The notes beneath the pieces are model-generated. The model was not told the origin of the DNA. It did not search any database and saw only the letters and a list, made by a program, of their open reading frames with translations. A program made the position numbers and the translations under genes. Of a stretch of 64,000 bases of DNA, positions 5,431 through 48,610 are shown piece by piece. This DNA is from Lineus longissimus (taxonomy: Eukaryota; Nemertea; Pilidiophora; Heteronemertea; Lineidae): the NCBI RefSeq assembly GCF_910592395.1, contig NC_088318.1, positions 2,604,001 through 2,668,000 of the forward strand, written 5' to 3'. Position 1 is the first letter of the stretch. Each line of letters begins with the position of its first letter.

Positions 5431-7045
5431 ATCCTAACAAAAACGTTGAAGGCCGCCTTCCGCGAGACTCGCCGCGACATTGACACAGAAGGTAACGACC
5501 TCTATGGACAGCTGACGATTCCAAAGCTTCATCTGACATTCATGAAGTTCCATGAGCGCTTCGAGCACTTTATTCAGGCGTGCGTCGTCTGGAAGGAATG
5601 TGTTGCTTGGCTGAAGAAGGAGCCGGGTCATGAACTGAATACAACCCGAACCGAGATGGTAGGTTTCTGTCGATCCCGTGTGTCAATCTGAGTAATACAT
5701 GTAGCTATTAGCTGCATTATGATGTAAGGTGTAATGTCCCAATAGGGCCGTTTGGATGGACCAAACCCATCTAGATGATCTGGGTTGGTCTAGACTGATG
5801 TAGGCACGCACGAATGTGATCTGGTCTGGTTGGATGTTCATACTTACGTTGTTACAAGACCTACGTCAATCATGACGCGGTTGGCGATGTGATCTGGTCT
5901 GGTTTGTTTTGGTCCTTTGTAAACGATCCTAATGACTACATCTTTGACCCAGAAGAATTACGTCCCAAGCTACTCAGAAGGAGTCTTTTGCTTGTCAAGG
6001 ATCAAATACCTGGGTTTATGTCTCATTCAAAGGACACAACAAGAGCAATAAGGGAGTTGTCCAAGGCCACAAGCAATGTGATGTGTCCATTGTTGAAATT
6101 ACAATGTTTGGATTATTAGTCCAACAGTTTAGTCACAAGAACCTCCAGCCCCTTGGCATTGAATGAGTTTCCTGTGCTCCACTGATCAATGATCTGCCTC
6201 TTTTCAGACACTTGATGTGAACATTCTTGTAAAGATGGTCGACTACATCAGTTCGTTGGATGAGAAACTCAACTCGCTCAAAGGCCGCCAAGAATGGAGC
6301 GAAACCGTCAAGAAATTCAAACCTGTGATTGACAGAATCCTGCATTCTAAATATACAATTGGTCCAATCAGCCAGCAGTACATGCAAAAGTACAGGTAGG
6401 CCTTCTGAACTAGATAGTTCATTGATTTGATCTCAAACTAGAGAGTGTGACCAAAGTTGAGGCATGATATCATTGGACCAGTATTTCGTTTCAGGAGGCT
6501 TGCATCATGACGCTTTGGACTTATTTACCAGTCCGCCATTCTGAAATTAATGATCCGAATTTTGTCTTTTCCTCTGTAGGCCTTTATGGATGCGTATTTG
6601 CGTGATTCAGCTGTTCATAGACCACGTCTGTCCTCCCCACATCAAGGAAGAGGAGGGGCGTGTCGATTCCATCAGGCCACTCTGGATCGTAAGCTTCATT
6701 CACCTTAACATTTGCAGTTTGGAAATGTATTTGTGCCACTTTTGCAGCAACAGTGTTTAAATTGAATTTCACACTACCAGCGATTATTTCCACTCATGCA
6801 CAGGTCTGGTCCAGAATTTGAAATATCATTGTGTAGATGCATGAAGTTTATCGGTATTTGAAATTTGATGATTATTTCACAGTCTCCATTTCACAGCATT
6901 CTAATTTGACTTTCTGGTGACTAGTTTATATTTCAATATTTCAGTTCCTCAGAGAAGAGGTGAACTTCCGTACGCCAAAGTCACTGACGAAGGTAGCTAC
7001 GTTCTTGAGATCCTGCAAGTTCAACGCAGTCAAGAAAATCTACAA
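5431..7045 (+). CDS. RNF213: RNF213-like: four exons N-terminal to the RING
   Basis: Exons 5431-5658, 6208-6395, 6580-6688 and 6945-7045 encode about 209 residues leading into the RING. They look helical and rich in charged and aromatic residues (for example HLTFMKFHERFEHFIQACVV and MRICVIQLFIDHVCPP). The acceptor CAG before ATC at 5431 shows that the open frame continues from an upstream exon outside the window or beyond the 5' repeats. Assignment to the hinge/E3-shell part preceding the RING rests on continuity with the RING exon rather than on a recognised domain. Confidence 0.8.
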
Positions 7046-10000
7046 GTATGTCTCTTAAACGAAATGTCTTGTGCTCGTTTTATGGAATATTTTCTCTTTA
7101 ACTAGCATTCATTTTGTCGTTAGTTGCCTCATATTCCTTCCGTCCTTTTTCCTCCAGGATCAACTCAAAATGTATCGCATGTGAAGAGCCAATGAAGGAC
7201 CCTATGATACTCCCCTGCAAACACGACATCTGTCGAACATGCTTACAGGACCAAATCGATGTTGACCAAAGGGAATGCCTCAGATGTAAGGCAGTTATAC
7301 CTGAAGACTTCGTAGCTCCTGAGAGAGGGGCAAATAGGTAGGTTGACACCTAGGTTAATCTTATGTTTGCCTGGTTTTGTAACAAGATTGACTTCCATTG
7401 AGCGTTTCTACTATTCGTCTTGTGCTTATTGATAATATCATTGGCTTGGTGATTTTCGGCCGGAATGCTTTCAGGGTTTAGGCCGCTCTCCTTGGTTCCC
7501 TGCCCTCAAAGTTAAAAAGCCGAGCTCTATCATACTGATCTCACTGGCGTTATTTTGCCCTCCAAGTACTCAATCATAAAACCTTGCAGACGTACTATAG
7601 AACTCAGCAGACGCTAAACACAGCAATGTTTGGCTTCCCAAATTTACCTTTGCAGTGTTTCTCTCAAACTTTTCAGGAAGGCTGACGAATCCTACAACCG
7701 ATATATCTGCGCCTGCAACGAGTTCTTCATGGACCTTGTCTCCCAGCTGTGTTTTGCCGAAGACCAACCGCCAACCCAGGAAGTCATCAAAATCCTCATG
7801 TCATACGTCATCCACGAGCCCAAACGTGTCGGGATGCGTTCACATACAAAGGAGTTGACTGTTTACGGCGAGTGCATTGACCCAACCCCCGTGCTTCGAT
7901 CGCTCCTGTTACAGCTCTTACTCCGATACAGCTCGAATGACGTCTGCGATCACCTCCAGTACTTCTTTAAGCGTTCTCAGGGTCTCCTGAAAGATCCGGG
8001 ACATATCGTCGAGTTGTCTCTCCTCTGTGCTCGCTGCTTCGAGGTGAGTCTGTTTATCATAATCTCGGTGAAATTTGTATTCATTGCTCGGTTGTTGAAG
8101 GTCGTGTTACTTACTTGGTTACTTGGTAAGTGTATTCCTCCTCTTAGGCCGGAGAAGCTCTGTACATTTCCCAGTAGGGTAGTCATTCTTCTTCCCTTTT
8201 TCGTTAATTTCCAAGTAGAACTTCATCAACAGGAGAATACTTACTTACTTAGTCCTCTTCGTGCCTAGAGGGCAGTGGGCGCATAAGGCTTCAATTTTCA
8301 TTCTTCACCTTGTCTTGTGAAAGTGCAAACTTCATTATATTTACATTTTTGCCTGATTTCAGGATTCTTATCACAGCCACTGTGGCTTGCAGCCTGGGAA
8401 TGCCTTGAAGACCAGGGTCGAGTTTGCCACAAGATGCATGGAAGCGGCTGAAAAAGACATTGGCACCAATGCCCTCGACATTAGAAAGGTCGAAGCAATC
8501 GCCAAGACCAGATTCGGAATGAGCGTGGCTGCCAAAATGATGAACAGGATTCATATATTGAAAGAGGAGAATCATGACGTGCACGCTGCCAGACGACTGT
8601 GGGATGTGGCCAAGCGACTCTCGGAATCAAGCAATTCAAAGTGGCCGAGGTTGTTTCTCGTGAAGCAGCTCTGCAGAAATTATGGGATGGAGAGCTTGGA
8701 CACCGTCTCGCAGCTCCGCCATCTGGCCTGGGTGATGCCCGATGAAGCTCGGGGCAGAGATGATAACGGGGTTGATAGGTTCATCCTGTTTGGTGCACAG
8801 TACAAGACCATACGTGACGAGGTGGCTGCTGTCATTTTAGGGGGCTCAGTTGAGGATTTTAGGGGGAAATGTCAAGTACGTTGTTCTTCTTCTCATTAGA
8901 ATACTTTAAGAAGGTCTCTTGCAGAAACGTCAGAAGTGAAAATTACCCTTGGTTCGACTACCGGTCGAGTTGCTACTTGGTTCCCCTACTGGTCGACTTC
9001 AAAAGAGCATCTTCTGGTTGCTCCTTGAAACCCCTGATTGATTTCTGTGGAGAGCGAGTAATAATATGATATCCCAAAAGCGCTTTGAACAGGGAAACAT
9101 GGAGAAGCACTGTATAGGAACTCAATATCATTATTGATATTGATATTATTATTACCTACTTTTGAGTAAATGTGGTTAGTTGGTTGTTAAAGCTAAACCT
9201 CTACTTCTTCTTTTGCATTGTTTCTTGAATTTCGGTTGTTACAGGGATTGAATGGCAACAAGCAGGTTAAGGAGGTCTCCTGTCTGTTGGCCCTGCATCG
9301 TGAGGTCTACACGCGCAACTTGTTTGAACCGAATGTTGCCCAAAGAATTACAGATCAGGTATGTCTTTTACAGGGTTTTTTCAGGTGGGTGAGGTTTTGC
9401 TGACAAGATGGGTGAGGTTTTGCTGACAAGATGGGTGAGGTTTTGCTGACAAGATGGGTGAGGTTTTGCTGACAAGATGGGTGAGGTTTGCTGACAAGAT
9501 GGGTGAGGTTTTGCTGACAAGATGGGTGAGGTTTTGCTGACAAGATGGGTGAGGTTTTGCTGACAAGATGGGTGAGGTTTTGCTGACAAGATGGGTACGG
9601 TTTTGCTGACAAGATGGGTACGGTTTTGCTGACAAGATGGGTGAGGTTTTGCTGACAAGATGGGTGAGGTTTTGCTGACAAGATGGGTGAGGTTTTGCTG
9701 ACAAGATGGGTGAGGTTTTGTTGACAAGATGGGTGAGGTTTTGCTGACAAGATGGGTGAGGCTTTGCTCGAACTAATGTTAATGTTATTCGATGTTACCA
9801 AGCCTGGTATCAGGTTCCTACAAAAGATTGGTTATGTATTGTAACTTTAAAGGTTTGAATAAGAATGGCTCTAGAAGTTTAGCAGATCATTTGGTGAATA
9901 TATCTCGCATGATATTGGGCAATTTCTTAATGTTTGCATCAATAAAGGATGATGTTTGAGTTATCATTTCTCCTTTTCTTTGTCTCAGACCATCGACAAC

Positions 10001-13000
10001 ATGCAGAATGTGTGTATGAACCAGGCATTCATAAACAACAAGGTATGTCTTCTTCCAACATCGGGGAATGCCCAGCCTCACTCCATCAAAGTCGTCATGT
10101 CATCAGACACCTTCTTAGTCTTAATTTGTGTTGATATGTCTTAAATCAGCATGCTTTTCTATAAACTTCCCCCAAAAAAGAAGTAAAAATCAGTTGGTTT
10201 TCATCTTTAAAAGTCAGAAAAAGGATAGGTAATTTCGAGTCTTGGGTACCATTTTGTGATTTTTCCCTCTCACTTTCCAGCAAGCAGTGGTTGATACCCT
10301 CGAAAAGGTCAAATCAAACAAAATAGGCCCTGAACCAGTGGAAGCCGACAAAATGACAAAGGATGTGTGGGATCTCTTGGTGCAGACGACTCTGGTCATG
10401 CAGTCCTTGAAGGAGACACCCCTCCTCAAGCCCTTCAAGGTCATGGCCTCCCAGGCCGGGAGGATGAAAGATGCGTTTCTGCCGGTGATGCCTCATGATC
10501 ATCTGGAGGAAACTCGTGCGGCTCTGCTTGCGGCCACGAGAGGTGGTGGCGATGAAAATCCTGTCTTCTACTCCTGTAGTCGAGGTCACCCGTACGTCAT
10601 TGGAAATGTAAGTAATATGTGTAGAAGCTACTGTAAATGCTAAATTTAAGGTCTGCAGAATTTTTTGTCGCAGCAGTAAATGAAATGAAATGTATGTTCT
10701 TATACAGTACTTAGTACTGTACAAGTGTTCTGTCTCAAGTGGTTTATAACTATTTGAGAGCTGAAAACCAGAAGCCTTTCTGTTGAAAATGTGGAGTACA
10801 CATTTTGCACTACTGTGCCATCAAAGTTGCCACAGATATTTCTGGCTTTACAATATTAACCTTTTTACCAAAATGGTGATTGTTGTTCAGTGTCGTTGCG
10901 AATTACAACATGTTAGTTATAAACATCTGCTCAAAAAAAAGCTTTTTTCTGCCAAAAAACCCTCAAGCTTGTAAAGTTATACGCAAATTTGCATGAAAAA
11001 TATTCAGTTAAAGATGGTGCTTGGGATGAAAATGTCTTTTCTTTGATTTTTGGCTCACCGTAGGGGAGTCTATGTAATACCGCAGTGTCCGTCGTCGTCC
11101 GTCGACCGTCGTCCGTCGTCCGTCGTCGGTCTTCCGTCGTCCGTCGTCGTATCCTATTTCAAAAACAGTGGCACGTTTCTTAACCGCTAGGGCTATGAAC
11201 TTGAAACTTTGTACACAGCACCCCCTAGGTCAGGTGACCTCTGACACTGAATTTCAGTCCGATCTGATTCTCAACTTGGCCACCAGGGGGCCAAATGTCG
11301 ATATCTAAAAAGTGTGATATCTCGCTTATTAGTGACTTGTTTTCGATGAAACTTGTCTTGTAGCAAATATACATCTTATATCATACGGATTTTTAATTTG
11401 ACCTACTTTTCAAGTTCACAGAGGTCATATGGCATAAATTGGCCGATAGAGTGTAAACTATGGCACGTTTCTTAACCACTAAAGCTATGAACTTGAAACT
11501 TAGTACATATAACCCCCTATATCACATAGCCTCTGGTGCTGAATTTCAGTTTGATCTGATTCTCAACTTTGCCACCAGGGGGCCAAAAGTGGATATCTAA
11601 AAAGTGTGATATCTCGCTTATAAGTGACTTGTTTTCGATAAAATTTTTATGGTAGGTACTCTTAGGAAGAATACATCACATGTTTTACGGGTTTTCAATT
11701 TGACCTACTTTTCAAGGTCACAGAGGTCATATGGCGTGAATTGGCCGTTAGAGTGTAAACTATGGCACGTTTCTTAACCAGTAAAGCTATGAACTTGAAA
11801 CTTGGTGCATATAACCCCCTACATCAGATAACCTTTGATGCCGAATTTTGGCCTGATCTGATTCTTTATTCGGCCACCAGGGGGCCATAATGGAAAAAGG
11901 AAGAAGTGCAATATCTTGCTTATTTGAGTGAATTGTTTTCGATAAAATTTTTATGGCAGGGACTTCTAGCAAGGATCAATCAATCAATCAATCAAATATG
12001 ACATTTCTAAAGCGCCCAAATTTGGTGAAAAATTTCACCAACTCTCAGGCGCCTTTGAAATACACTGGAAAAAGGTGTGCTTTTATCATCGTTCCAAAAG
12101 CTGCCTTTGACTCCGCAAGTCTAATGTGTGTGGGCAGCCCATTCCATAGGAGTGGCGCCGCCTTGTAGAAGGATCTGTCACCAAAACGTATGCACTTGGT
12201 GCGTGGCTCCTGTAGAAGGAAAGCGGCATCAGCCCTGAGGGAATAGGCTGACCCACGTCGGCGTTGTACCACATCAGTCAGGTAAGCCGGTGCCGCTCCA
12301 TGGACTGCCTTGTAGGTGAGCAAGAGTATCTTAAACTCAACCCTTGCCTTGACAGGCAGCCAATGGAGCCGCATCAGAACCGGACTGATACGGTCAAACT
12401 TGGGGATCAAGCATGTAACCCTGGCTGCAGCATTCAAAACACGCTGCAACCTACCATACTGCTGTTCCGTGATGCCGTAGAGGAGAGCATTGCAGTAGTC
12501 CAAGTGAGATGTAACAAACGCATGCACCAGGGTTTTGGTGGTGCCGACAGTCAGAAACCCGCGAATCTGACGAATCTTGTAGAGGCCAAAGAAAGCTCTA
12601 GAGCAGACTTTACTGACATGAGTTTTCATCGACATGTGTTCGTCAAAAAAGACACCCAGATTTCTGACTGACGTACTGGTGCTAACTGTCGAGTTCCCCA
12701 CCCTGACTCCGTCAATGCTCACCTTCCCAAGCTGCTGCCTGGAGCCAATCAACATGCATTCTGTCTTAGTGTCATTTATGCAGAGATGGTTGTCAATAAA
12801 CCATGCGCGCGCATCGCGTATGCACCGAACCACTGTCTCCACAGCCCCCTGCACATTTTCGACTGTGACTGGTCTGAATGACATGTACAGCTGGTTATCG
12901 TCAGAGTAACCATGAAATCCAGGGGCATGTAGAGCCAACAGATGGTACAGACGTGATAGGTAAAACAGAAAAAGGACTGGGCCCAGAGAGCTTCCCTGCG

Positions 13001-16000
13001 GGACACCACATGTCCTACGATTTTTGGATTTGACCTCCTTTTCTAGGTCACAGAGGTCAAATGGCGTAAATTGGCTATTAGAGTGTAACTATGGCACGTT
13101 TCTTAACTGCTGAAGCTATGAACTTGAAAGTTGGTACATGTAACCCCCTACATCAGATAATCTCTGACACCGAATTTTGGCCTGATCTGATTCTTGATTT
13201 GGCCACCAGGGGGTCAAAACTGAAAAAGTAGGACGTGCAATATCTCGCTTATTAATGACTTTTTTTCGATGAATTTTTTATTGCAGGGACTCTTAGCAAT
13301 CACACGATATTGATCTTGTTGATGTCATAGACAATTATTGGTTGGATCATAAACTTATATATACTGCCCTGTCTTATTACTTGACATCAATACACATCTA
13401 AAAAAAGTCTTCATGCCTGATTGTGTTCACCATATTCACCTCTAAACTAAGCATGATCCTGCCTACTAAAAGATGTATACGGTGAGCACAATGGCCCCTG
13501 GCCGTTTCATTTTGACAGTGTGGTCGTCCGTATTATACCGGTCGATGCTGGTGTGGGTCAGATATTGGAGGTCAAGGACACCATCTGTCAGCCGGCAATG
13601 TCAAACTGGATCATAGGTAAGCTATGAGACAAGTCCGCTTCTTAACTCGTTTGCTTCCATCTTTTTCATAGTGTGGTCACCCAGTTAAACAAGGAAAATG
13701 TCAGTGTGGTTCGGATATCGGTGGCATTGATTACCAACTGAGAGAAGGCAACGCTAGAATGGATCATAGGTATAGTATCAACCAGAATGAGTAATGATGA
13801 CATATTATCACCCAAAATATTCATTGGGAGTGACGTCAACTGCAATAATATGCACGTCGGTGATACTATGTCATTTGAAGTCACAGCCTCAAACTTTTCA
13901 GAGGATTTGCGTTGGTTCTCACTTGTACTTTGGAGAATCTGGACCATTTCTGAGAAGTCCAACCTCGAATCAAGGAAGACATACTAGAAAAGAGAATCAC
14001 TTTCAAATGCTAAGTAGATGCATAATATGGTACTTCAATGACATATTTGGTTTGCAATTATCCACAAAAAACTCAAATTGATACGTAATGATATGACTTT
14101 GCAAACGTCCATCTCAAACTGACGCTTTGAATATTTCAGGGACAACACCCAGAAGGGTTATGTCCTTAACGTCGCTGATATGAAGAACCTCACCCCCATC
14201 CCGGAGAGAAGCATGTCTCCAGCTGCCACGACTATCGTCCGTCTGCTGCTGCATCTCTCCATGCACATTGGGATCGAGAGTGACCTGCCGGTGAGATGTT
14301 TGGACTATATTTTATAGATACTTGGTGTTTATTTCGTTTTATGAACTACGTGATGCCTTGAACCTGGGTGGAATTGGGTGAATCAAGGAATCGGAGAAAG
14401 GGAGAGCACCGTTGAGAAAAGCGGGTACCCAGAGGGTATTTATGGTGCATTTACCAAAATTACTGGTTAAATTCAGAATACTTTCCCAAATATTGGGGGA
14501 GGGGGCTTGCTCCCGATGCCCCACCCCCTTGTCAAATCAAATACTAGCATAAGAATGACAAGATGGTAGAATTGCCAGATTGTGTTAGGAACACTTAATA
14601 AATGGCAAATATTTTGCCAGATTTATTTCCATCGGCACCAAATTTTCCAATTTTTTAATTCGCTTACGATTTTGTCAGTATTACACACAACAAACAGGAT
14701 AATTGACAGGATGTTGAAGTTGTTGCTCTCGGCACCAAATTTTCGATCGCATCTTCACTACAGGGTGTTACTGCACTCATCCAGCCACCAATCCCAGCTG
14801 ACCAGGTGCGAAGATTCCTCCTTGATCACATCCGCCACGACATCCAAGTCCTGGGCCGAGCCATCAACAAGTCCCCCGACGACTGTCTGACGCTCGTGAC
14901 CATCCTGATTGAAACATTCATGGAGAATAAGAACAGTTAGTGTTGGAGGAGTTTTTAATTGACACCTCTTGCATCTAGGGTTAAGTCCTGGGTAGGAGAG
15001 ATAACTTCAATAAGGTTTATGGAACATCCCCCTGATAAGAAGTCTGGCAAAAAAAACACTATTTGAGATGATCAGGGTTGAGGCTGAGGTTAAGGTTACA
15101 ACCGAATTTCACTCCTACAGACCTGAAAATTCTGTGTTGTCATTGGCAGCTTTCAAATCTCTTATTTCCATACGGACCTGTGTTGCGATGAAGTGGCCAA
15201 ACTTCGCCAGGGAGTGAGGTCAGTGCCGTTTATGTTGACATCATGACTGCCGTAATATCGAAAATATCAAAGACACACCAGAGGTCGGCCGTTTAGTTTC
15301 CCACAGCAATGCTGCACAACTGGGAGAGCTGAAGGAAGCAAATTGGGGCTTTTATAGTTCCATTTGGGTTCATGTTTGCAAAAATTACGCAGAAGTTGTT
15401 CTGAATTGGTTTTCTTCTTGTAGGTGATGCGCACGTCAATGCTGATCTTACCACTAAAGAGGCACGTGCTGCCTGGGAGAAAGCTTTCACCGAGGCCTAT
15501 GTCAACCCACTTCTAAATGTAAGTGAGTCGTGATACGAGGGCAGAGGGAGGTCTCTCTAGTCTAGATGCGTGAGGTGTGGAAGATCAGTGACAGTCCTAA
15601 CTTACTTACTAAGGACTCCTCAGTACCGAAAAAAACAGCACCAAGGCATCCACTCAGGCCCGCCATCCAATTCTTGGCCAGTTTGGAGATGGTTTCCAAG
15701 GTCTATCCTTAAAACTTTATTCGTAAAAGATTTCACCAAGTTCTTCATCAAGGTTGGGGGAGGGGGGGGTTCTTTGTGCCAACTGCTGCCCCCCTGCCCT
15801 TTCTGGACCAAAACTTTAACTCGTTTCTATTCCCTAAGTGCCCACCAGTGGCAGTTTATTCCAAACTTGTCACATGAAGTGTATATGTATAAGATCCTAT
15901 AATTTTCAGTATGGCTTCATTTTCAGGATTTAGATGCCATCCTGAACAGAGCAAACGCCGCGCTGGTGAATGACGATCGTTTGAGTGAGTAGTCCTAGTC

Positions 16001-19000
16001 ATTCTTTGAAGGCATTTCTTCTTCGGAAGAACACTATACGGCATGGATGAGGTGTTGTAAGGCTCTAAAATAACCACTTTGTGGAGCCCTTTTCTTCCCT
16101 GTGTTTATTTTTGGGTGGGAGTGCATATTAGCACAGTGTTACATATTATGGCTGGAGGTGTTGACTTGGCTGATTTTGCATTGTAACTTTACTGTCGGAA
16201 GAAATGTTCCTACAACTAGGTAACACTTTGATTGAGAGCTGTTCAACCCCATTTCAGGTAACAACCCGCTGATCAAGATCGTACACGAGGTAATCAGCCT
16301 CGGGGACCAGGTTGATATCAGCCAGATCCATGACTGTCATCTGATGTGGCAGTTCCGCAGCCGTGTCACGGTGGAGCACCTGACACAACTGATGAATGAG
16401 CATGCGGGCGATAAATGCCCTGCTGAGACCCTGAAGCTGTTCATTCGTGAGGTAAATATCGGCTCAAGATTCATGCAGTTTGACTCAAGAGGTCAAAGTA
16501 ACTTTTCTGTTTCAATGAAAGATTCAAGAGGAAAACTTACACCCAGTGGTGGCAAGTAATAATGGGTACAACCAAGGCAGACGATACCAGCAGACTGGAG
16601 AGGGAAACGGATGTGGCCATTTTCTGACTGAGTCTTGGACATTTCCGCATCAATCAACACCTGAGAAGGCTGGGCCTGCTCAATGCTGATATCTATAAGT
16701 GCGGGTTTTGGGTGTAAGGTTTCTGTCCATCAGTTCTTTGGCCGAATGATTTTGTTCAGTGGATTGTTTAAACTTGACTCGGATGAAAATGATTATTTGC
16801 GAATCTTTTTCTTCAAGGAACCCCACCTGCGTCTGTTGTCACGGTTACCTGACATCATCCGGCTCCAGCAGCTGTTAATCCAGCATTACCAGCGTCGTAT
16901 CACCCAGGCTGAGGCCAGGACCACATCGATCAAGGAACTGCTCCACTCACTCACTCGTAAGTCATATTTTTCTACTTGAGAAACTTTGATAAAATTAAAA
17001 CATATTTCAATTTTCTGACAAGTGCTGTCCTTAATAGAGAGGTGTCCTGATAACAGAGCTGAGGTCAAATCACACAGAGTGGATCCATTTCGGACCAAAA
17101 TCACTGTCCCTAAGAAGACAGTGTACTGCTAAGAGTGGTGTCCTCGTGGGGAGGGTCCACTGACCTAAGTTAAGCACTGTACTTGAACTGACTCGGCCAG
17201 TTGTGTTTCAAAACAGATTTCTTAACAAGGTTACTCTAATCCGTTGCAGTACAACAGCGAGGGGAATGGCAACGTCTCGTGGACGTCTTCACCGATGTTT
17301 GGAAGAATGTCAAAGATAAGCTTGTCGATTACAGTAAGTGCTATATCTGATTACTGGTACATGGTCAGTTTGTGATAATGACCAATCCAATGATTACAAG
17401 TATTCCATTCCCTATCAAATGGACCACTATCACAGACACCATAAAACTGTTCAGAGAAAACCGTCAGATTTTGAGGCATTGTTCGAGGAAAAAAGGTCCC
17501 CCCAGAAGTCAAACAAAAACGTGCTTTTGACCATGATGTTGGCCTTAAAAATTCAAAAAGTGTGATATTGCCCCCCCCCAGAGAGATTACACCCCTTTTC
17601 ATCACTCAAAAGTTTAACCATTTCTTCTCTTTCAGGCGCAAGTGGCTACACCCTCCCTGAAGAGATGTGTAAAATGACGGTCATCCCCAACACCCCCATC
17701 GCCATGCTGATTCCAAGCTCCAGGGGCCTGGGTCTGTGCTCCATGATGCTGGTCGAGTACCTCACCAGGAGACAGAACGACTTCATCATGGCGTATTGTC
17801 GACACAGAAACAAAGAGTAAGTTAAAACATGGACAAAGTAAAGTTGAAGTTTGTTTATTGGGCCAGACAGAATAGGCTTATGAAGCACTCTTTACTTCCA
17901 AACTCAGATCAATAATGCCAGGCCCCTGGTGAGGAGGCAGTCTGTTCCCTATATTCAATTGGCAGCTAACCAACCTGCCGCATCATCGGTGGGGCCGAAA
18001 CCTTTCTTTTGACTTTTCTTTTGTTAGTAAATGTAGTTCTGCTTGGAGATCCTTTAGTTTAAATGTCGAGAGCATCATGCTGAAACTGATGGGGAGTGTA
18101 TCAGATGCAAGGAATCTATACCAATGCAATCTTCTCATTCCAGCTCCAGAGAGCTCCCCAAGTTTGGTGTGACAGAAGCTACAGCCGCTCACCTGATCTA
18201 CTACGACCCTGAGAAGGACCTCCTCCCCATGGTCCTCGCTCACTGTAACTACTCCCTCGAGGTCGGCAAGGGCACTGTCATCAGTTACGACTTCGTTCGC
18301 CTGGAGCGCGAGCTGGAGGAGAGACTGCTACGTGGCAAGCCCAAGCTTGTGTTCGATGTGGCACCCATGGTGTTCCAGACCGAGTATCGAAATGCGATGG
18401 TCATATTTGGTGCGTTGAGAGACAACATAAGCCAGGTAAGAGATGTCTCGGATTCATGGTTGGCTCTGCTAATGAACCAGACCTCCAAAATTCCTCTCTG
18501 CTCTGATCACAGGAAACTTCCTTTCGATGGATGTGCCATGAGGCCTTGTGTAAAGTCTCTGTATTCTCAGTGGTTGGTTAGTCAAGCTTTGCCTGTCAGA
18601 AGTATAGTCAAGGTTGATATCTATCTGAAGTTCTGTATAAACTAAAGGCATCTGGACAGTTTGCAGCAGGCTGAGGCTCTCCACATTCTTGCCAGTTTAA
18701 ACCTTTTGCCTATTTCAAAACCTTTCAATATGATGTTCTCCATAACAACCCATCAAATCACCTTCCCAATAACATCTTTCCAAATATTTTCAGGAGCCAA
18801 TGAGTCATGCAGTCAAGGCGGAGATTCTGCTAGAGAACCGTGTCTACCAAGATCTCTGTGAAACGATCGCCAGCCTGGACATCACGATCGCCTGGCTACG
18901 CGACATTAGGCGCGAACCTGAAACTAAGCTTGTCACCTTCATGCACAATACGCTTGAAATGGACAAGGAGATTCTCTCACCGCAGGTCTGTTTAACCTTG

Positions 19001-20620
19001 CTCTTGTTTTCAGAAGTCTTCAAATAAAGTTTAAAGTTAAAAAAGATCTGACTTGAAACTTTCCCTCGGTGTATCCTGAAAGTTTTCAGCAGACCGCAGC
19101 TGTTAAATCAGTAGCGGGACTGGCACCTGAGCATTTCTGACTGGTACCTATTTACATAAACACGCGATTCAGGAAAGGAAAATAAGACAAAAGGACCTGC
19201 CTAGCACCTCACACCGACTGTGAGGCTCAAACTGGGGACCTCTTGACCACTAGCCAATAGCACAAGCTGCAAGTCTTATGGTTTCGCAATCGTAATTTTG
19301 CCTCCTTTGTTGTTTTCGGGTTTGAAAACCGACCTTGTCAATGAGCGCTGAATTGGCACGGTGCGACTTCACCCCCAGCAGATTCGTCTAACTACTACAC
19401 CCAACCGAAGCCTTCCTTATCAATCGGTCATATTCTACCAATCTCCTCCATTACAGATCCAGCAGCATTGTTCACTGATGCATGTCCAGTCCTTGTGGCT
19501 CTTACTCACCATGGAGCGATCCAAACAGCTCAAGTACTTCAACCAGGTAAGGCACCATTTGTTAGAATGTTGCCCATCAAAACACTCCTTAGCCAGCTGT
19601 TTCACCCACATTCGGTCTTTACTTCCTGGTTTATACCAACTGTGCATACAAGGAGGGTATTCTTGACCTCCAATGTACAAAAGTTTGATCATTGTTACTG
19701 CAAAAAGAGTAGCATCTGTCCAAAATTAACTGTTTTAAGACTTTTGGATGCCGAAGAATTGCAGTCATTTCTCTGTCTGTGCATCCTAACTGGAACAATC
19801 TGGACCCTGATATCCTGAAGTGCAACCAGAGTTCAAATTGTTACTGAGACTGGCTACCCTAAAACACATCCACACAGAAGTTGCCTGAAATTCTCTGCCA
19901 AATTAAGTTGTTTCGTAGGTTTACGAAACATTGAAACTGCTCTCCACCTTGCTTCTGGGCACCGCGTAATCTTGTTTATTCCATTTTCCCAGGATGCATT
20001 TGAAGACGTCTCCGAGGAGTATCATGAACCATTAGAAGGCGAGGCCCCCTTCGACATCGAACAAGCCTTGCAGCACCTGAACATTGACAGGTTTGTGTCG
20101 GAACTCTACGAGTGCATTCTACTTAACATCAACCTCCAACGAACACCCAATGATGAAGATTTCCAGGACAATACCGAGTACATGTGAGTATCGACAATTG
20201 TGCAGGCTCTGATGTAGGTTTTTCTGTTGGGAATCCCCGAGAAGGTGATGTTCTTCATTTTACCAACAAGGTTATTCAGCAAAAACTTATCAGTGCTTTG
20301 AGAAATATCTATTCCTCTTTGTCAATGATCCTCAAAATGAGGCTGTAGAAGGGGTACCAGCTGTCTCCTAGGCTGTGACTAGTTTTGCTGTGGAGGGTGA
20401 CGAAGGTCAGTAATGGTGAAATTCTAACTGAGTGATACGTGTGTTCCTTTTCAGCCTTGCCGATGTGATGACCGAATACATCAGCTCGAAAGACCGCACA
20501 GAGATTCTGGCACTGACGAACGGCGTCTTCCCCAAAGAGGTCAAGGTCAAACATGCTGTGGCCGTCTGGACGGAGGCCATCAAGGTGCAGCTCAAGGAAG
20601 AAAAAAAGAGACGACATTAG
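5431..20620 (+). CDS. RNF213: RNF213-type E3 ubiquitin ligase, C-terminal part (24 coding exon positions)
   Basis: This is the 3' end of a giant E3 ligase gene. Exons: 5431-5658, 6208-6395, 6580-6688, 6945-7045, 7158-7337 (RING), 7677-8043, 8363-8875, 9245-9358, 9989-10042, 10281-10607, 13519-13616 or 13672-13769 (alternatives), 14140-14290, 14764-14935, 15424-15518, 15927-15984, 16258-16451, 16818-16956, 17250-17333, 17636-17816, 18144-18435, 18794-18985, 19457-19546, 19993-20183, 20455-20620 (stop TAG). All phases join without a stop, giving about 1,427 residues. From RING to C-terminus is about 1,210 residues, the same as in human RNF213. CNEFFMDLVSQLCF after the RING is a clear family match. 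Vertebrate RNF213 is a cytosolic AAA+ ATPase/E3 acting on lipid droplets and intracellular pathogens. The AAA+ core must lie upstream, because exon 1 here opens with a splice acceptor. Confidence 0.9.
7158..7337 (+). CDS. RNF213: RING-finger exon of the RNF213-like gene
   Basis: This single 180-bp exon carries a C3HC4 RING: CIAC, then the central CKHDIC, then CLRC. The central LPCKHDICRTCL matches the RNF213 RING style (LPCDHxxCxxCL). RING fingers bind E2~ubiquitin, though in RNF213 the RING is reported to be dispensable for some activities that depend on the RZ finger. The exon enters in phase 2 (AA|G) and leaves in phase 2 (AG|G), joining 7045 and 7677. All zinc-ligand positions appear intact, so there is no sign of decay. 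Confidence 0.9.
7677..10607 (+). CDS. RNF213: RNF213-like: post-RING E3 shell exons up to the first half of the RZ finger
   Basis: Exons 7677-8043, 8363-8875, 9245-9358, 9989-10042 (a 54-bp micro-exon) and 10281-10607 are all in phase. They encode the helical shell after the RING, including CNEFFMDLVSQLCF, PVLRSLLLQLLLRYS and RLWDVAKRLSESSNSKWPR. The last exon ends in YSCSRGHPYVIGN, the first half of the RZ-type zinc finger (Cys-x3-His plus the GHPY.IG.C signature shared by RNF213 and ZNFX1). The remaining zinc ligands come from the next exon, 2.9 kb downstream. Confidence 0.88.
9386..9768. repeat. 23-bp minisatellite, about 16-17 copies
   Basis: Near-perfect head-to-tail copies of tgggtgaggttttgctgaca + aga. 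One unit is a base short (gaggtttgctg), two have gtacgg in place of gtgagg, and one has ttgttgaca. The array starts 27 bp after the splice donor at 9358, so it is intronic in the RNF213-like gene. Long open frames on the reverse strand (SAKPHPSCQQN-type repeats) are artefacts of the repeat. Confidence 0.95.
11040..13310. repeat. Tandem ~300-bp repeats (4 units) with GTCCGTC-rich head, interrupted by a LINE
   Basis: The unit carries ggcacgtttcttaacc, then agctatgaacttgaaact, acctctgacactgaatttc, ggccaccagggggcc, and ends with tttgacctacttttcaaggt. Copies begin near 11167, 11461, 11764 and 13091, spaced about 295-303 bp apart, with the third interrupted by the LINE fragment. At about 11088-11150 an interrupted gtccgtc/gtcgtcc array precedes the first unit. 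The structure lies in the intron between the two halves of the RZ-finger coding sequence. Similar GTCCGTC-headed repeats occur in many marine invertebrate genomes, but I cannot name the family from sequence alone. Confidence 0.85.
11975..13020 (-). mobile_element. 5'-truncated non-LTR retrotransposon (CR1/Jockey-type reverse transcriptase)
   Basis: On the minus strand an open frame of about 325 codons runs from about 13019 to 12045. It encodes the C-terminal half of a LINE reverse transcriptase: CGVPQGSSLGPVLFLFY, the catalytic YSDDNQLYMSF box, then the typical tail region with LHWLPVKARVEFKILLLTYK, RFGDRSFYKAAPLLWNGLP and FGTMIKAHLF. Downstream, at 11975-11995, is a (TTGA)n-type tail (tcaa repeats on the plus strand), the expected 3' end of such elements. 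The endonuclease and N-terminal RT are absent, the usual outcome of incomplete target-primed reverse transcription. The frame has no stops, suggesting a fairly recent insertion. It is not a host gene. Confidence 0.9.
13519..13616 (+). CDS. RNF213: RZ-finger second-half exon, version a (mutually exclusive candidate)
   Basis: This 98-bp exon joins codon-perfect to 10607 (GGN then CGRPYYTGRCWCGSDIGG). It supplies the last zinc ligands (C-x-C in RCWC) and the GSDIGG tail of the RZ finger. The acceptor is tttgacag and the donor is AG|gtaagc. It leaves in phase 2 and joins 14140 as AG|G. A second version of the same exon follows after a 55-nt gap. In RNF213 the RZ finger is required for ubiquitylating bacterial lipid A/LPS (family knowledge). 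Differences from version b concentrate in the stretch between the GHPY signature and the C-x-C, and after GSDIGG. Confidence 0.9.
13672..13769 (+). CDS. RNF213: RZ-finger second-half exon, version b (mutually exclusive candidate)
   Basis: This is a 98-bp exon with the same entry and exit phase as version a. It encodes CGHPVKQGKCQCGSDIGG followed by IDYQLREGNARMDHR. All zinc-ligand positions are intact, so it is not a decayed copy. The acceptor is ctttttcatag and the donor is AG|gtatag. Splicing version a directly to b would read into TGA at 13739-13741, so only one of the two can be used in a full-length mRNA. Version b shows conserved landmarks but a clearly different loop and C-terminal flank. 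Confidence 0.88.
14140..20620 (+). CDS. RNF213: RNF213-like: C-terminal domain exons
   Basis: Thirteen exons (14140-14290 through 20455-20620) in continuous phase encode about 700 residues after the RZ finger. They correspond to the family's C-terminal shell, which docks the E2. Recognisable conserved stretches include LTPIPERSMSPAATTIVRLL, IAMLIPSSRGLGLCSMMLVE, AAHLIYYDPEKDLLPMVLAH and VISYDFVRLERELEERLL. The protein ends in a basic KEEKKRRH tail with TAG at 20618-20620. The acceptor at 16818 is aag instead of cag; the others are ordinary. Intron 21 carries a degraded SINE. Confidence 0.88.
19070..19275 (-). repeat. Degraded tRNA-derived SINE remnant
   Basis: Read on the minus strand, about 19200-19260 resembles a decayed tRNA gene head (ggctagtggtcaagaggtcc then cagtttgagcc, a damaged B box). 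It continues into a body with the same layout as the better SINE at 47415-47725 (ttcagcag..., ctggtacctatttacat). It lies in an intron of the RNF213-like gene. The match is weak, so the assignment is tentative. Confidence 0.45.
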
Positions 20621-33126: not shown

Positions 33127-41662
<8,536 letters not shown>

Positions 41663-43935: not shown

Positions 43936-44631
43936 CTCAACAATGGGCCCCCAACAGCCGTGCGCCAGTGGGATGTTTTCTTATGGTTTCCATAGGTACC
44001 AGAGTAGAAGGAGAAAATGTCCCCCTGGGAAAAGTGTCCGGCCCTATTGTATTCCAACAGATTATGGTATATGGTTCTCAAAAGCCATGACCATCAATAG
44101 CTCAGAGACTCAAACGCATAAAAGTATCCTTTGTTCCCTGGACATACCATTCAAGGACATGTCTAACTTCTACACTGGTACGCATGTTGTGATATCACAA
44201 ACTACATGAACTCGCGCCTTTGCAGCCTCGCCGTGTGTTGTGCTTATCATTCCGCATTAAGTACAGAATCGTCGATATTGCACACTCCGGACGCAGTGGA
44301 CCGGCCTCGTCCCGTCGCCGGGAGATACGATTAGGATGACGAAATGGACTGCCGCGGAAGTCCACGATATTTAGGTCAAGCAAATGTAGAACTCATTAGT
44401 ATCACAGGCTTTTTAAAATAATTTCTCTCGGCAATTTATTGGTTTGATTATATTCTTGACCTGGGATAATGTAAACAATCTACATCCATAAGTCACGATC
44501 TGCAAGATGATGATGCTTGGATTGTAATCGGTGATCGGCGGCAAATACTCGCAGCGCCCAGGTTGTTCCATTTCAATCAATACATCATCCAGGGATGTCG
44601 TCAAACTGACAATGTTATCCGGTGATTACTC
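43936..44631. other. Upstream region of the SLC10-like gene
   Basis: No coding exon is visible. At 44275-44365 there is an approximately 85-bp block (ggacgcagtgga, ctcgtcc, gatgacgaaatgga) that recurs at about 47335-47412 in an intron of the next gene, so it is probably a dispersed repeat. The promoter of the SLC10-like gene should lie here, but I see no assignable TATA or initiator. Confidence 0.4.
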
Positions 44632-47600
44632 ATGTCGTCTGCAGCGATGAAGATCACCATTCTCCTCGCTGTCGTCTGCTTCTTCTGTCTCACAGTCGCA
44701 GAAGGTACAAACAACCCAGGAACGCTGATTTCTGTCAATGTGACCAAAGATCAACCATTTCTGTTCCTAATTGCTCCACCTGCGCTGACGTTAGACCTGC
44801 ACGGCGAGGACACCTTGTCGTTCTACTACAAAAGGACAACAGATGATGGCGGGAAATTGGTTCTGTGGGCTGTCTCTGTGGATGAGACAATCGCTTCAGT
44901 GAAAACAGCATCGGTCGAGTTAAAAGAGTTGGATATTTTACCTGATGCAAACACCACCCTTACCAACGTTACAGCCAGCGGCAATATCACTTTACGTGGA
45001 GAATTCTTAGGATATACTGAACTCAAATTCTACGTCTGTGACAATTCCTCAAGGGAATGTAATGGCAGTTCGTCTTATCAACATGGTGGCGTTTTAGCAG
45101 ACGACGTATGGCTCCTCCTTGAATTCCAATACGACGTGACTGTTATCCGTAAACATCGACTCGTGGATGACATCTTCAGGGCGACAATCGCCATTTTGGT
45201 TATCTTTATAAACGTTGCCATGGGTTGCAAGGTCCAGCTGGATATTGTTAAGGAGGTCCTGAGGAAACCTGTGGCGCCAGCTATCGGTTTCTGTTGCCAA
45301 TTTGCTTTCATGCCCGTGGTAGGTAACCTTTCTTTTTAGACCGTCAGGGTATGTCGTCACCCTCCCCAATAATTGCCTAACTCATTTTAGCTACTTTTGA
45401 GAAAACAAGAAAAAACTAATTCTATTTCAGTGGAACAAACAGGATTTTTGCATCGTTCTTTTGCTCCGAGATGTTTTTGCGACTGATTAGAATGTTTCTT
45501 TCCAGTCCCTGAAACGATGTAGCAAAATGTAATGGCATTCGGCCGAGGCTAAAGTTTAGGAATGAAGACAATTGCACAATCGGGCATCTAAATATTTTCG
45601 GATACAAACAGTTACTGTTGCTTTTGATATCCGGGATAGAAAAGGAAAATAAATTTGTGGTCATCATACAACATGATGTACCTCGGCAGGTTTCGCTACC
45701 CTTACGAACGACGAAGTAGCCTGGCTCCCACGAAATACGAAGGTCTGTCGGGTCTTCAAGTCCTTCGCATTATTACGCGAAACGCAGTTACGAGGAGGCG
45801 GGGAAATCGTTTTCAAAGTCTTCGATAAAGTACATTTACATGCTTTCTACTTCGTCGTTCGTAGCTCTTCGTAAGGGTGTCGAACCTCCCTAATGACGAA
45901 TTAAATTAACCGAAATGCATTTTGCGAATATTACTCCACTTTGCTCGACCTAATTTTTCAACAATCATAGAAATCGGGTTATGCAAAGTGCTGACTCAGA
46001 GGTAAATTGAGTTGAATGGTACATGAAGGAAGCGCCCGAATTGTTGTATGTATTAGTATAAAAATAATGATAAATCGTATATTTCCAGCTGTCGTATGCT
46101 GTTGCCAAGTTAGCTAGCCTGTCCCCAGGAGAGACCATAGGCGTCTTCACTCTCGGTTGCTCCCCTGGTGGAGGAGCCAGTAACATCTACACCTACCTCA
46201 TCGGTGGAGACGTCAGCCTTAGCATAACGATGACTCTGATCAGTACCTTTGCCTCATTCGGTAAGTTGGAGACGATTTATAAATTAGTTCACTTTTTCCG
46301 TCGCAACTGGTCCCGAGATCCGAGGGGGGGGGGTCGTGGTTGGTGTGAGGTGAGAGGGGGCATCCTGCAATAACATGCCAGTCCAGTCGCTACAATAAAC
46401 AACTCGCATTTTTAGTGACAGCCACACCCGAAATACATCCCAGTTTGCCCTGTGTTCGTTTTAAAATGACAATGAGCCCATTGAACTGCTAGTGAACCGT
46501 GCTGAATTTGTACTGGCTACCGCTCTCTCCATCATCACCAACGGTATGTGCCGGTGCCGGTCGTGCGAGGGCGTTTCAATGAAAAGGACGCACGCCACTG
46601 CCGTACCGGTACCTGATAAAACGTGCCGTTTTTAGTTTGAAAAGTTTGGGTGCGGGGTATATGATAATGATAATAATGAAAATTTTGACATCTGTGCACG
46701 GATGATTAGATAACAAGTTAAGGAAGAAGCAAAAAAAGATAAAAATGAATGGATGATTAGATAACAAGATAAGGAAGAAGAAGAAAACAAGAGAAAAATT
46801 ACGGCAGATTCACCGGGAGTCGAACCCGTGACCAGCCGATCCACAGTCATTCACCCTTAGCGCTGAGCCGTCAAGGCTGTCATGCTGAAATGGAGGATTA
46901 TTTGCATCTTATATGCGATATGCAAACGAGCGCGCCGCAATTGTGACAAGGTAGCGCAGGTGGCAGAGTGATTGACCGAAATAGATCCAAGTAATCGTAT
47001 ATTTCGATAGTTGTACAGATTTTTCTCAACATATCGCATCTATATACCTCAGTGATATAAAAGATTATCTTTGCAATTGATTTGACGTTTGAATGGCCTT
47101 TTTTAAAGTTTTTAAAATTCGAGGTCAGCAGGGTCAAAGTCATGAATCAATGACTGTTGGTGTGAGGTGATAGGGGCCATCCTGCACTAACATGCCATAC
47201 CAGTCGCTACGATAAACAACTCGCAGTACCAACCACACCCAAAACCCATCCCAGTTTGCCCTTTGCTTTAGCTTCCTGACTACAAGGCCGGGCCACTGCG
47301 TCCGGAGTGGTGGTGTGAATCTGCGCGACTGTACTCGTTACACTTCGGACGCAGTGGAGCGGTCTCGTCCTGTCTCCATAAGGATGTCGAAATGAACTGC
47401 CCCACTGAGAGTCTATTAATAATAATAATGATGCGTCTTATATAGCGCAGTATCCAGGCCGTTTGCCCGCTCAAAGCGCTTTACATTATTACCCCGGTCT
47501 CTCCTGAAACCTTTCAGTAGAACTCAGAAAGGCTGCCGTCAATTCAGCGCACTAGCTGATCATTCCAATCGGTACCCATTTATACACCTGGGTGGAGAGA

Positions 47601-48610
47601 AGCAACTGCAGGGGTAAGTGTCTTGCCCAGGGACACTGAAACCAGTATTGTGGTTCTAACCGGAGTCGAACCCACGACCTTTCGGTTATGAGTCCGGCGC
47701 TCTAACCATTACTCCACTGATTCCCCATCTCGTCAGCAACTACAAAACTAGAGGCCCGAGGGGCAGTTTATGTTGTGTGATCTGATACAAACTTAGAAGC
47801 AGAGTACACAGTGTAATCTAGGCGGTAGCCTTTGTTTTGGCTTATTTCAAATATTTTTTCCATGTATTTCCAGCCATGGTGCCACTCTGGATGTTCACCT
47901 TGGGTAGATACATCCTGGAGGATCTCGGCAGAGGTGAAGTCAACATCCCGTACACCAACATTATTGCGACATTGGCGGGAATTCTCTTACCAGTTGTCAT
48001 AGGAATAGTAATACAGAAAAAGGCGCCAAAGGTTGCGAAGTATATCAAGATGATCATCAGGCCATTCCTATTCGTTTTTCTCCTTTTTATGTTCACCTTT
48101 GGAGTTTGGGTGAATTGGCCACTTTTCCAGTTGTTCAACACAAGATTGGCCTTCGCAGGGTTTACATTGCCCTTATTTGGATTCGCCAGCGGAGGGATTG
48201 TAGCGGCCATCTGTCGATTGTCATGGAAACGGGTCAAAACTATCGCCTTGGAAACTGGAATACAGAATACAGGGGTGGCAATAGTTATGCTTTTATTTTC
48301 CCTCCCAGCGCCCGAGAGTGACTTTTCGATCATTGGCTGTATTGCGATTTCGACTTGTACTCCTATAGGCCCACTCTCAGCTGCCATCTTTTATGAGGTT
48401 AAGAGAAGATGTGAGAAAAAGAAGGAAGAGAAGGGCGGAGACGGTGGCGCCACCGACGGAACCGACGGCGATGATGAAAATAAAGAAGGAGAAGAGGAAA
48501 TGAAGGATGTCAACAAGGCAGCAAACGGAAGTGCAAATGAGGACGACTCGCTTAAAGTTGATCGCCAGCATTATCGCCGAAGGAGTTCTCAAGTCATTTT
48601 ACCATTTTAA
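44632..48610 (+). CDS. SLC10-family (sodium/bile-acid symporter-like) membrane protein, 3 exons
   Basis: Exons 44632-45318, 46089-46260 and 47874-48610, in phase, give 531 aa. A signal peptide (MKITILLAVVCFFCLTVAEG) is followed by an exoplasmic domain of about 150 residues with many N-x-S/T sites. About eight to ten membrane segments follow, starting at DDIFRATIAILVIFINVAMG. SLC10 hallmarks are clear: GCSPGGGASNIYTYLIGGD followed by SLSITMTLIST, and ETGIQNTGVAIVMLLFSLP. The long N-terminal domain resembles SLC10A3/A5-like (P3-type) members more than the short ileal ASBT. The C-terminal cytosolic tail is very charged (KKKEEKGGDGG, ENKEGEEEMKD). Start at 44632 or at the in-frame ATG 44647, which places the signal peptide at the very start. 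Substrate cannot be inferred. Confidence 0.9.
46337..47276. repeat. Pair of ~115-bp direct repeats in the SLC10-like gene's intron 2
   Basis: 46337-46455 and 47158-47276 share ggtgtgaggtga, ggg[g]ccatcctgca, taacatgcca, cagtcgctac, ataaacaactcgca and catcccagtttgccct. They are direct copies 820 bp apart. A shorter direct repeat (gatgattagataacaag...aaggaagaag) occurs at about 46700-46730 and 46752-46782. Confidence 0.75.
46800..46885 (-). repeat. tRNA-like sequence (SINE head)
   Basis: On the minus strand, gacggctcagcgctaagggt resembles an A box and acgggttcgactcccggt is a good B box/T-arm with a paired stem. The anticodon arm is not convincing, and no separate tRNA gene is claimed. The most likely source is a SINE derived from a tRNA, in intron 2 of the SLC10-like gene. 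Confidence 0.5.
47415..47725 (-). mobile_element. tRNA-derived SINE
   Basis: Minus-strand order: a tRNA-like head at about 47725-47655 (cagtggagtaatggttagag, ggactcataacc anticodon arm with CAT, and the B box gtgggttcgactccgg). A body follows with cctgggcaagacacttaccc, ggtgtataaatgggtacc and gtaaagcgctttgagc. The 3' end is a (TTA)n tail at about 47415-47430. This is the classic layout of an RNA polymerase III SINE. It is inserted against the direction of the SLC10-like gene, in its second intron. Confidence 0.85.

Follow-up and report, generated by a model that had tools for sequence, protein, structure and literature searches.

Among the described systems, the closest to the locus considered here is the RZ finger of mammalian RNF213, a ubiquitin ligase that defends against bacteria, viruses, and parasites, according to the excerpts of the two papers on which we draw (PMC11549300, PMC12075652). 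In the mouse protein, as the excerpted text of PMC12075652 gives it, the zinc ligands are Cys4451, His4455, Cys4471, and Cys4474; the nucleophile, from cross-linking mass spectrometry, is Cys4462; and His4483 is the general base, its alanine mutant having reduced autoubiquitination. The human equivalents of the nucleophile and the base are C4516 and H4537, and with a C4516S or H4509A allele neither Salmonella nor Listeria nor the Toxoplasma vacuole became ubiquitylated (PMC11549300). MYCBP2 and the RBR ligases are likewise described as transthiolating through a Cys for which a neighboring His serves as the general base (PMC12075652, PMC11549300). In bivalves, several RNF213 entries of the Manila clam change strongly after LPS, PGN, or poly(I:C) (PMC7430831), and the RNF213 family is expanded in symbiotic species (PMC9993606).

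RNF213 places its ubiquitin marks on bacteria, on their lipopolysaccharide, and on parasite vacuoles. Outside this family, exons 3A and 3C of ketohexokinase exemplify tandem duplicates that are spliced in a mutually exclusive manner. To our knowledge, neither this pair nor that of U2AF1 swaps the general base of a ubiquitin ligase, and we know of no alternative exon lacking the general-base His in MYCBP2 or the RBR ligases. In U2AF1, exons Ab and 3 are alternative duplicates of which one is chosen, as would be the case for the pair described below (PMC5224494). Among the papers listed by searches of open-licence literature, no title, abstract opening, or inspected passage describes an RZ exon pair or an RZ-switching RNF213 isoform, in agreement with the preliminary description of this locus.

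Two RZ exons in an RNF213 gene of Lineus

The stretch of 64,000 nucleotides analyzed here (the window; C11:2604001-2668000) comes from the nemertean Lineus longissimus and carries the C-terminal half of an RNF213 gene on the plus strand, with the following features:

5431..20620, plus strand: RNF213 gene, modelled C-terminal half, with 24 exons per isoform (23 constant exons plus a or b)
7158..7337, plus strand: RING finger exon (PF00097, 28.5 bits against a cut-off of 21)
10281..10607, plus strand: constant upstream exon, ending ...FYSCSRGHPYVIGN in phase 0, inside the exact match to protein P0004
13519..13616, plus strand: RZ exon a (His type), CGRPYYTGRCWCGSDIGGQGHHLSAGNVKLDH, with nucleophile Cys 1, zinc Cys 10 and 12, and general-base His 21
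13617..13671, plus strand: intron between exons a and b, 55 nt
13672..13769, plus strand: RZ exon b (Tyr type), CGHPVKQGKCQCGSDIGGIDYQLREGNARMDH, with nucleophile Cys 1, zinc Cys 10 and 12, and Tyr 21
14140..14290, plus strand: constant downstream exon (completes Arg, then DNTQKGYVLN...), taking phase 2 from a or b

The model covers the exons from 5431 on and has its stop codon at 20618-20620, the AAA+ region falling outside the modelled exons. Spliced with exon b, it is identical (1427/1427) to residues 3603-5029, the last 1427 residues, of the annotated Lineus protein P0004 (“rnf213-alpha-like isoform X1”), which at full length bears precomputed matches to PF00004 and PF07728 for the AAA+ core. 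The RING finger is encoded upstream of the RZ finger, as the RNF213 family requires. The RZ-type zinc finger itself (PF20173, ZnF_RZ-type) scores 58.4 bits in version a and 60.2 bits in version b against a Pfam cut-off of 27, and matching against the PDB aligns 229 query residues with mouse RNF213 at E values of 1e-31 and 5e-34 for the two exon versions. With an RZ finger, a RING finger, an AAA+ core, a catalytic Cys, and zinc ligands, the gene is, judged by its sequence, a member of the RNF213 E3 ligase family.

Mouse residue numbers were assigned to the alignment via the residue spacing given in PMC12075652. On this numbering, Cys4462 aligns with residue 1 and His4483 with residue 21 of both exon versions, and the alternative segment spans the nucleophile, the loop, and the zinc site up to the general base. 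The preliminary description had credited the two exons with intact zinc ligands; this applies to the last two Cys, which are in the exon, and not to the first two ligands (Cys and His), which are provided by the constant exon 10281..10607. The catalytic Cys and the RZ zinc ligands are present in both versions in the mouse alignments, zinc binding being predicted, and the Cys pair within the exon is spaced CxC, one residue shorter than the CxxC of mouse. What had been overlooked is that the exon opens with the catalytic Cys and that b is without the catalytic His: the equivalent of His4483 is His in exon a, and in exon b a Tyr at residue 21 occupies the general-base position. The pair would hence exchange the RZ active site itself, Cys/His against Cys/Tyr. 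The locus thus resembles mouse and human RNF213 in having a RING followed by an RZ finger in the same protein, with nucleophile and zinc ligands present, and differs in its two alternative active-site exons, in CxC for CxxC, and in the Tyr that replaces the catalytic His in b; the predicted chemistry of exon a is also like that of MYCBP2 and the RBR ligases, with a transthiolating Cys and a nearby general-base His. Two recognition or activity states had originally been suggested for such a switch. Since the swapped segment holds the ubiquitin-accepting Cys and the base position (His in a, Tyr in b), the first prediction can be sharpened to a change in transfer activity or chemistry, the altered chemistry with Tyr being extrapolated from the His-to-Ala mutant of mouse.

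As regards gene structure, our frame tests agree with the coordinates, lengths (98 nt for each exon), phases, and reading frames first reported. Both exons have a phase-0 start and a phase-2 end, and the frame is intact with either one between 10607 and 14140. Joining a to b hits a TGA at 13739, also as reported, and skipping both leads to a stop at 14167; double inclusion and skipping each break the reading frame of the RNF213 model, and for this reason only exclusive use of a or b gives the full protein. The 55-nt length reported for the intron between them holds as well, and it is the shortest of the model, the other 23 introns having at least 112 nt; its likely branch adenosine, in a TTAAC read by eye, is base 29. 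An intron of this size may be too short to splice and would be a plausible physical block to joining the two exons. The splice sites, which had been called good, were scored with a matrix built from this gene's own sites. The judgment holds for the strong donor of exon a (8.0) and not for the donor of exon b (1.2, below all 22 other donors, the lowest of which scores 3.4), for its acceptor (2.0, below the lowest of 23 others, which range from 2.2 to 13.4), or for the acceptor of exon a, which at 3.5 lies toward the low end.

An inverted paralog and the divergence of the two exons

A genome search for RZ fingers returned eight matches, two of them exons a and b themselves. The pair recurs in a second copy of the gene, an inverted paralog on the minus strand with RZ matches near C11:2703276-2703521, its RZ exons lying 86 kb from those of the window. 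The introns of the two copies differ at 221/7757 nt (97% identical). Exon a' is the same as a (0/98 nt different), and b' (CGRPVERAKCWCGSDIGGIGYQLKEGNAKIDHR) differs from b at 13/98 nt and 9 of the 32 full residues and keeps the Tyr; the intron between a' and b' also has 55 nt, of which 4 differ from the window copy. An assembly artefact is rejected as the source of the pair, exons a and b being only 62% identical and the paralog having both exons too. Paralog models with a' or with b' are both open to the end, and the one with a' is annotated protein P0051 (“isoform X2”; 1430/1430 residues identical). The annotated versions accordingly split by copy, P0004 from the window gene using b and P0051 from the paralog using a'; their clusters hold 2 and 3 member sequences, respectively. 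All four exons keep the frame, the splice dinucleotides, and the key residues. The acceptors of a and a' score similarly (3.5 and 4.1), and the donor of the b-type exon is weak in both copies.

The two gene copies differ next to exon a by an insertion:

11052..13504, no strand assigned: insertion of about 2.45 kb with inverted ends (GGCTCACCGTA.../...TACGGTGAGC), absent from the paralog; right boundary approximate

It holds a minus-strand reverse-transcriptase-like open reading frame (12045-13088) and ends about 14 nt 5' of exon a, at that exon's polypyrimidine tract. The paralog intron, 448 nt long, aligns to nt 1-444 of its window counterpart. The insertion rebuilt the acceptor region of exon a in the window copy and may weaken the exon there. 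The flanks before a' and b' in the paralog match at 22/50 positions, a similarity that we do not count as evidence, the window flank of a being the insertion.

The other RZ matches in the genome provide a measure of how widespread the arrangement is. Each of three RNF213-like loci on C8 has only one RZ exon; in two of them the base position is occupied by Asn and the nucleophile Cys is kept, and in the third the base position is occupied by His:

L011:5292-5393 and L012:5509-5610: Asn-type single RZ exons of RNF213-like genes on C8, found by search

A second copy of the RZ exon was not found in the 10-kb stretch around any of the three, and the exon pair is therefore not general in Lineus. These single exons likewise begin with a cysteine codon (by eye), so that the pair is not alone in having its exon border at the nucleophile. 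At C11:12123554, the eighth match, a different gene encodes a His-bearing RZ finger; this gene is possibly ZNFX1.

Of the 98 nt, 37 differ between exons a and b (61/98 identical; NG86 dN 0.41, dS 1.42), and both exons keep nine residues that do not vary across 43 bivalve RZ segments. When 37 random substitutions were placed on a, none of 20,000 trials combined the absence of a stop with retention of the nine residues and of at least 17/32 residues overall, so that the retention of these residues in an open frame goes beyond chance. Given the dS of 1.42 between a and b, exon b has had a long life without decay. The 13 substitutions between b and b' introduced no stop and left the nine invariant residues and the Tyr untouched (chance 0.016); the absence of change between a and a' (0/98) has a chance of 0.059 and is not significant alone. 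Between the copies, b and b' diverge at dN 0.145 and dS 0.164, compared with an intron divergence of 0.028 and, in the remaining coding sequence, dN 0.022 and dS 0.046. Exon b outpaces the introns (13/98 versus 221/7757, p 6e-6), including the one that follows it (11/369, p 2.4e-4). We do not claim positive selection on b, because its dS is elevated as well, the pattern extends to the RING exon (dS 0.237), and a conversion mosaic fits equally well.

In this respect, the window gene and its paralog look like an exon-wise mosaic, in which some exons are more diverged than the neighboring introns, and gene conversion may blur selection tests based on the paralog. The RING exon (7158-7337; paralog C11:2707488-2707309) has 18 differences in 177 compared nt (dN 0.081, dS 0.237), its two adjacent introns differing by 2-3% between the copies. 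Similar to it is the exon at 17250-17333 (8/81 differ; dN 0.116, dS 0.065).

His-type and Tyr-type RZ fingers in bivalves and other animals

A protein search with the RZ region gave 7 hits, and a further search gave 65. Fifty-one aligned RZ segments carry His (35), Tyr (15), or Asn (1) at the base position; this set takes in four Lineus rows, two of which are exon a (the model with a, and P0051). Kept apart from it were P0031 (His-type by eye, with a different upstream part), P0065, P0067, and P0068 (no RZ by pattern), and ten vertebrate, one tunicate, and one Naegleria row, all of them His by eye. Among the 43 bivalve rows, P0053 standing outside this count, the position is His in 29 and Tyr in 14. 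A considerable share of the bivalve and nemertean RZ fingers compared thus lacks the catalytic His. Exons b and b' and 14/14 bivalve Tyr-type rows retain the nucleophile Cys, the two zinc Cys of the exon, and the CG..IGG core.

Like Lineus, the RNF213-like proteins of Mercenaria, Mya, oysters, unionids, and mussels have RZ segments of His and Tyr type, the bivalve comparison covering protein sequences. Identities upstream of, within, and downstream of the exon segment were computed for His/Tyr pairs, from which the following, alike in their flanks and different mainly in this segment, are chosen examples: 97/52/97% in Mercenaria (P0008/P0033), 99/73/98% in Mya (P0010/P0047), and, between species, 88/56/89% in unionids (P0020/P0025) and 91/55/79% in oysters (P0009/P0013). 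Two Tyr-type Mya proteins, P0010 and P0041, are 97% alike in the segment and 84-85% in its flanks. Such a pattern would be expected if annotation had picked either member of an exon pair, and exchange between paralogs is an alternative. The difference between P0009 (Tyr) and P0012 (His) of Saccostrea, with the segment 82% alike and the flanks 89 and 91%, resembles plain substitution rather than an exon swap. Over the whole alignment of P0008 and P0033 (88% identical), 257 of 4711 alignment windows match no better than the RZ exon does; the swap is conspicuous next to its flanks, not within the entire protein.

The two types also differ at the fourth residue after the nucleophile, which is aromatic in 20/29 bivalve His rows and 0/14 Tyr rows (p 1e-5, kinship ignored); exons a (Tyr) and b (Val) of Lineus agree with this rule. 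Beyond the key column, a shared ancestry of the Lineus and bivalve Tyr segments was unsupported (D 6.1, column bootstrap P 0.24), and label permutations gave 51/1000 for their likeness. In a tree of 50 segments and 33 columns, with an unsettled bootstrap, Lineus a groups with b and b' (78/95, not starred); the tree needs five His/Tyr changes, at least three of them forced, and the AU test does not reject a single clade of Tyr segments (p 0.26). We claim no age for the Tyr switch, because the tree leaves common ancestry neither shown nor rejected; the His/Tyr switch may be old or recurrent.

Candidate functions of the exon pair

Taking these observations together, we propose, with a probability of roughly 0.6, that a and b are a functional mutually exclusive pair in the RNF213 gene that exchanges the RZ active site. 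As to the exclusive choice, the claim from which the analysis started is partly supported: the frame logic, the 55-nt intron, and the pair in the paralog point to it, and the annotated versions come from two different paralogs. Each exon would supply the Cys that accepts ubiquitin from the E2, the following loop, two of the four zinc ligands, and the general-base position, a providing the known Cys/His dyad and b a Cys/Tyr combination with a diverged loop. The short intron would block splicing of a to b, and the frameshift would remove double inclusion and skipping. We infer that both RZ versions fold and bind zinc and that b could still be charged with ubiquitin; with its general base gone, b would transfer more slowly or to other acceptors. 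A likely use would be to adjust what an antimicrobial ligase delivers, for example by offering an active form next to one that is held back or has another specificity, and a ligase that exchanges its active site could in this way adjust how strongly, or onto what, ubiquitin is written. A natural active-site pair in which the base and the loop differ within an otherwise identical protein is also a ready-made experiment on how the RZ finger picks its acceptors and on the part played by its general base, and if the choice of exon responds to infection, it would represent a new type of ubiquitin-ligase regulation, in which the active site is exchanged by splicing. A wider extension is tentative and rather doubtful: nemertean and bivalve RNF213 might repeatedly splice Cys/His for Cys/Tyr together with a fast-changing loop, thereby making two kinds of ubiquitin mark (e.g., on lipid hydroxyls versus protein amines), with the Tyr exon in an arms race and the His exon fixed.

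Other readings of the pair differ mainly in the role they give to exon b. It might be inactive or inhibitory, trapping ubiquitin or making a dead ligase that acts as a brake, a serious minority possibility that is compatible with exclusive splicing. The Tyr at the general-base position in both b and b', the Asn there in two more RNF213-like RZ exons of Lineus, and the reduced autoubiquitination of the mouse His4483Ala mutant (excerpt of PMC12075652) speak for such a brake; a dead finger, however, needs none of the nucleophile, zinc Cys, and CG..IGG core that b, b', and every bivalve Tyr-type row keep. Alternatively, labor might be divided by gene copy, the window gene using b after a transposon spoiled the acceptor of a, the paralog using a', and the unused exons being relics. 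The split of P0004 and P0051 between the copies, the insertion at the acceptor of a in the window copy only, and the weak b-type donor of both copies fit this proposal. We nevertheless regard it as unlikely, since all four exons are intact in frame, splice dinucleotides, and key residues, the donor of a is strong, its acceptor scores about as well as that of a', and the clusters of P0004 and P0051 may include further isoforms.

That exon b is instead a decaying duplicate taken up by the annotation pipeline has poor odds. Its weak donor and acceptor and the fast change between b and b' would be expected of decay, yet neither copy has a stop or an indel, both retain the Tyr and the nine invariant residues, the a-b distance implies long survival, and b is the version used in annotated isoform X1. 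Barely plausible is a reading of the pair as an on/off switch, in which including both exons or neither would send a frameshifted mRNA to decay: the unproductive joins do meet stops at 13739 and 14167, but one exon would suffice for such a switch, which leaves unexplained why two are kept with differing coding versions.

Several further elements of the window were noted by eye. A minisatellite with a unit like TGACAAGATGGGTGAGGTTTTGC occupies about 9380-9780, inside intron 9359-9988 of the RNF213 gene, and retroelement remains with an integrase-like reading frame are found at 894-2823, 5' of the modelled exons. Farther along, the exons at 35200-41551 and 44626-48610 resemble an MCM helicase gene and a bile-acid/sodium symporter-like gene, respectively.
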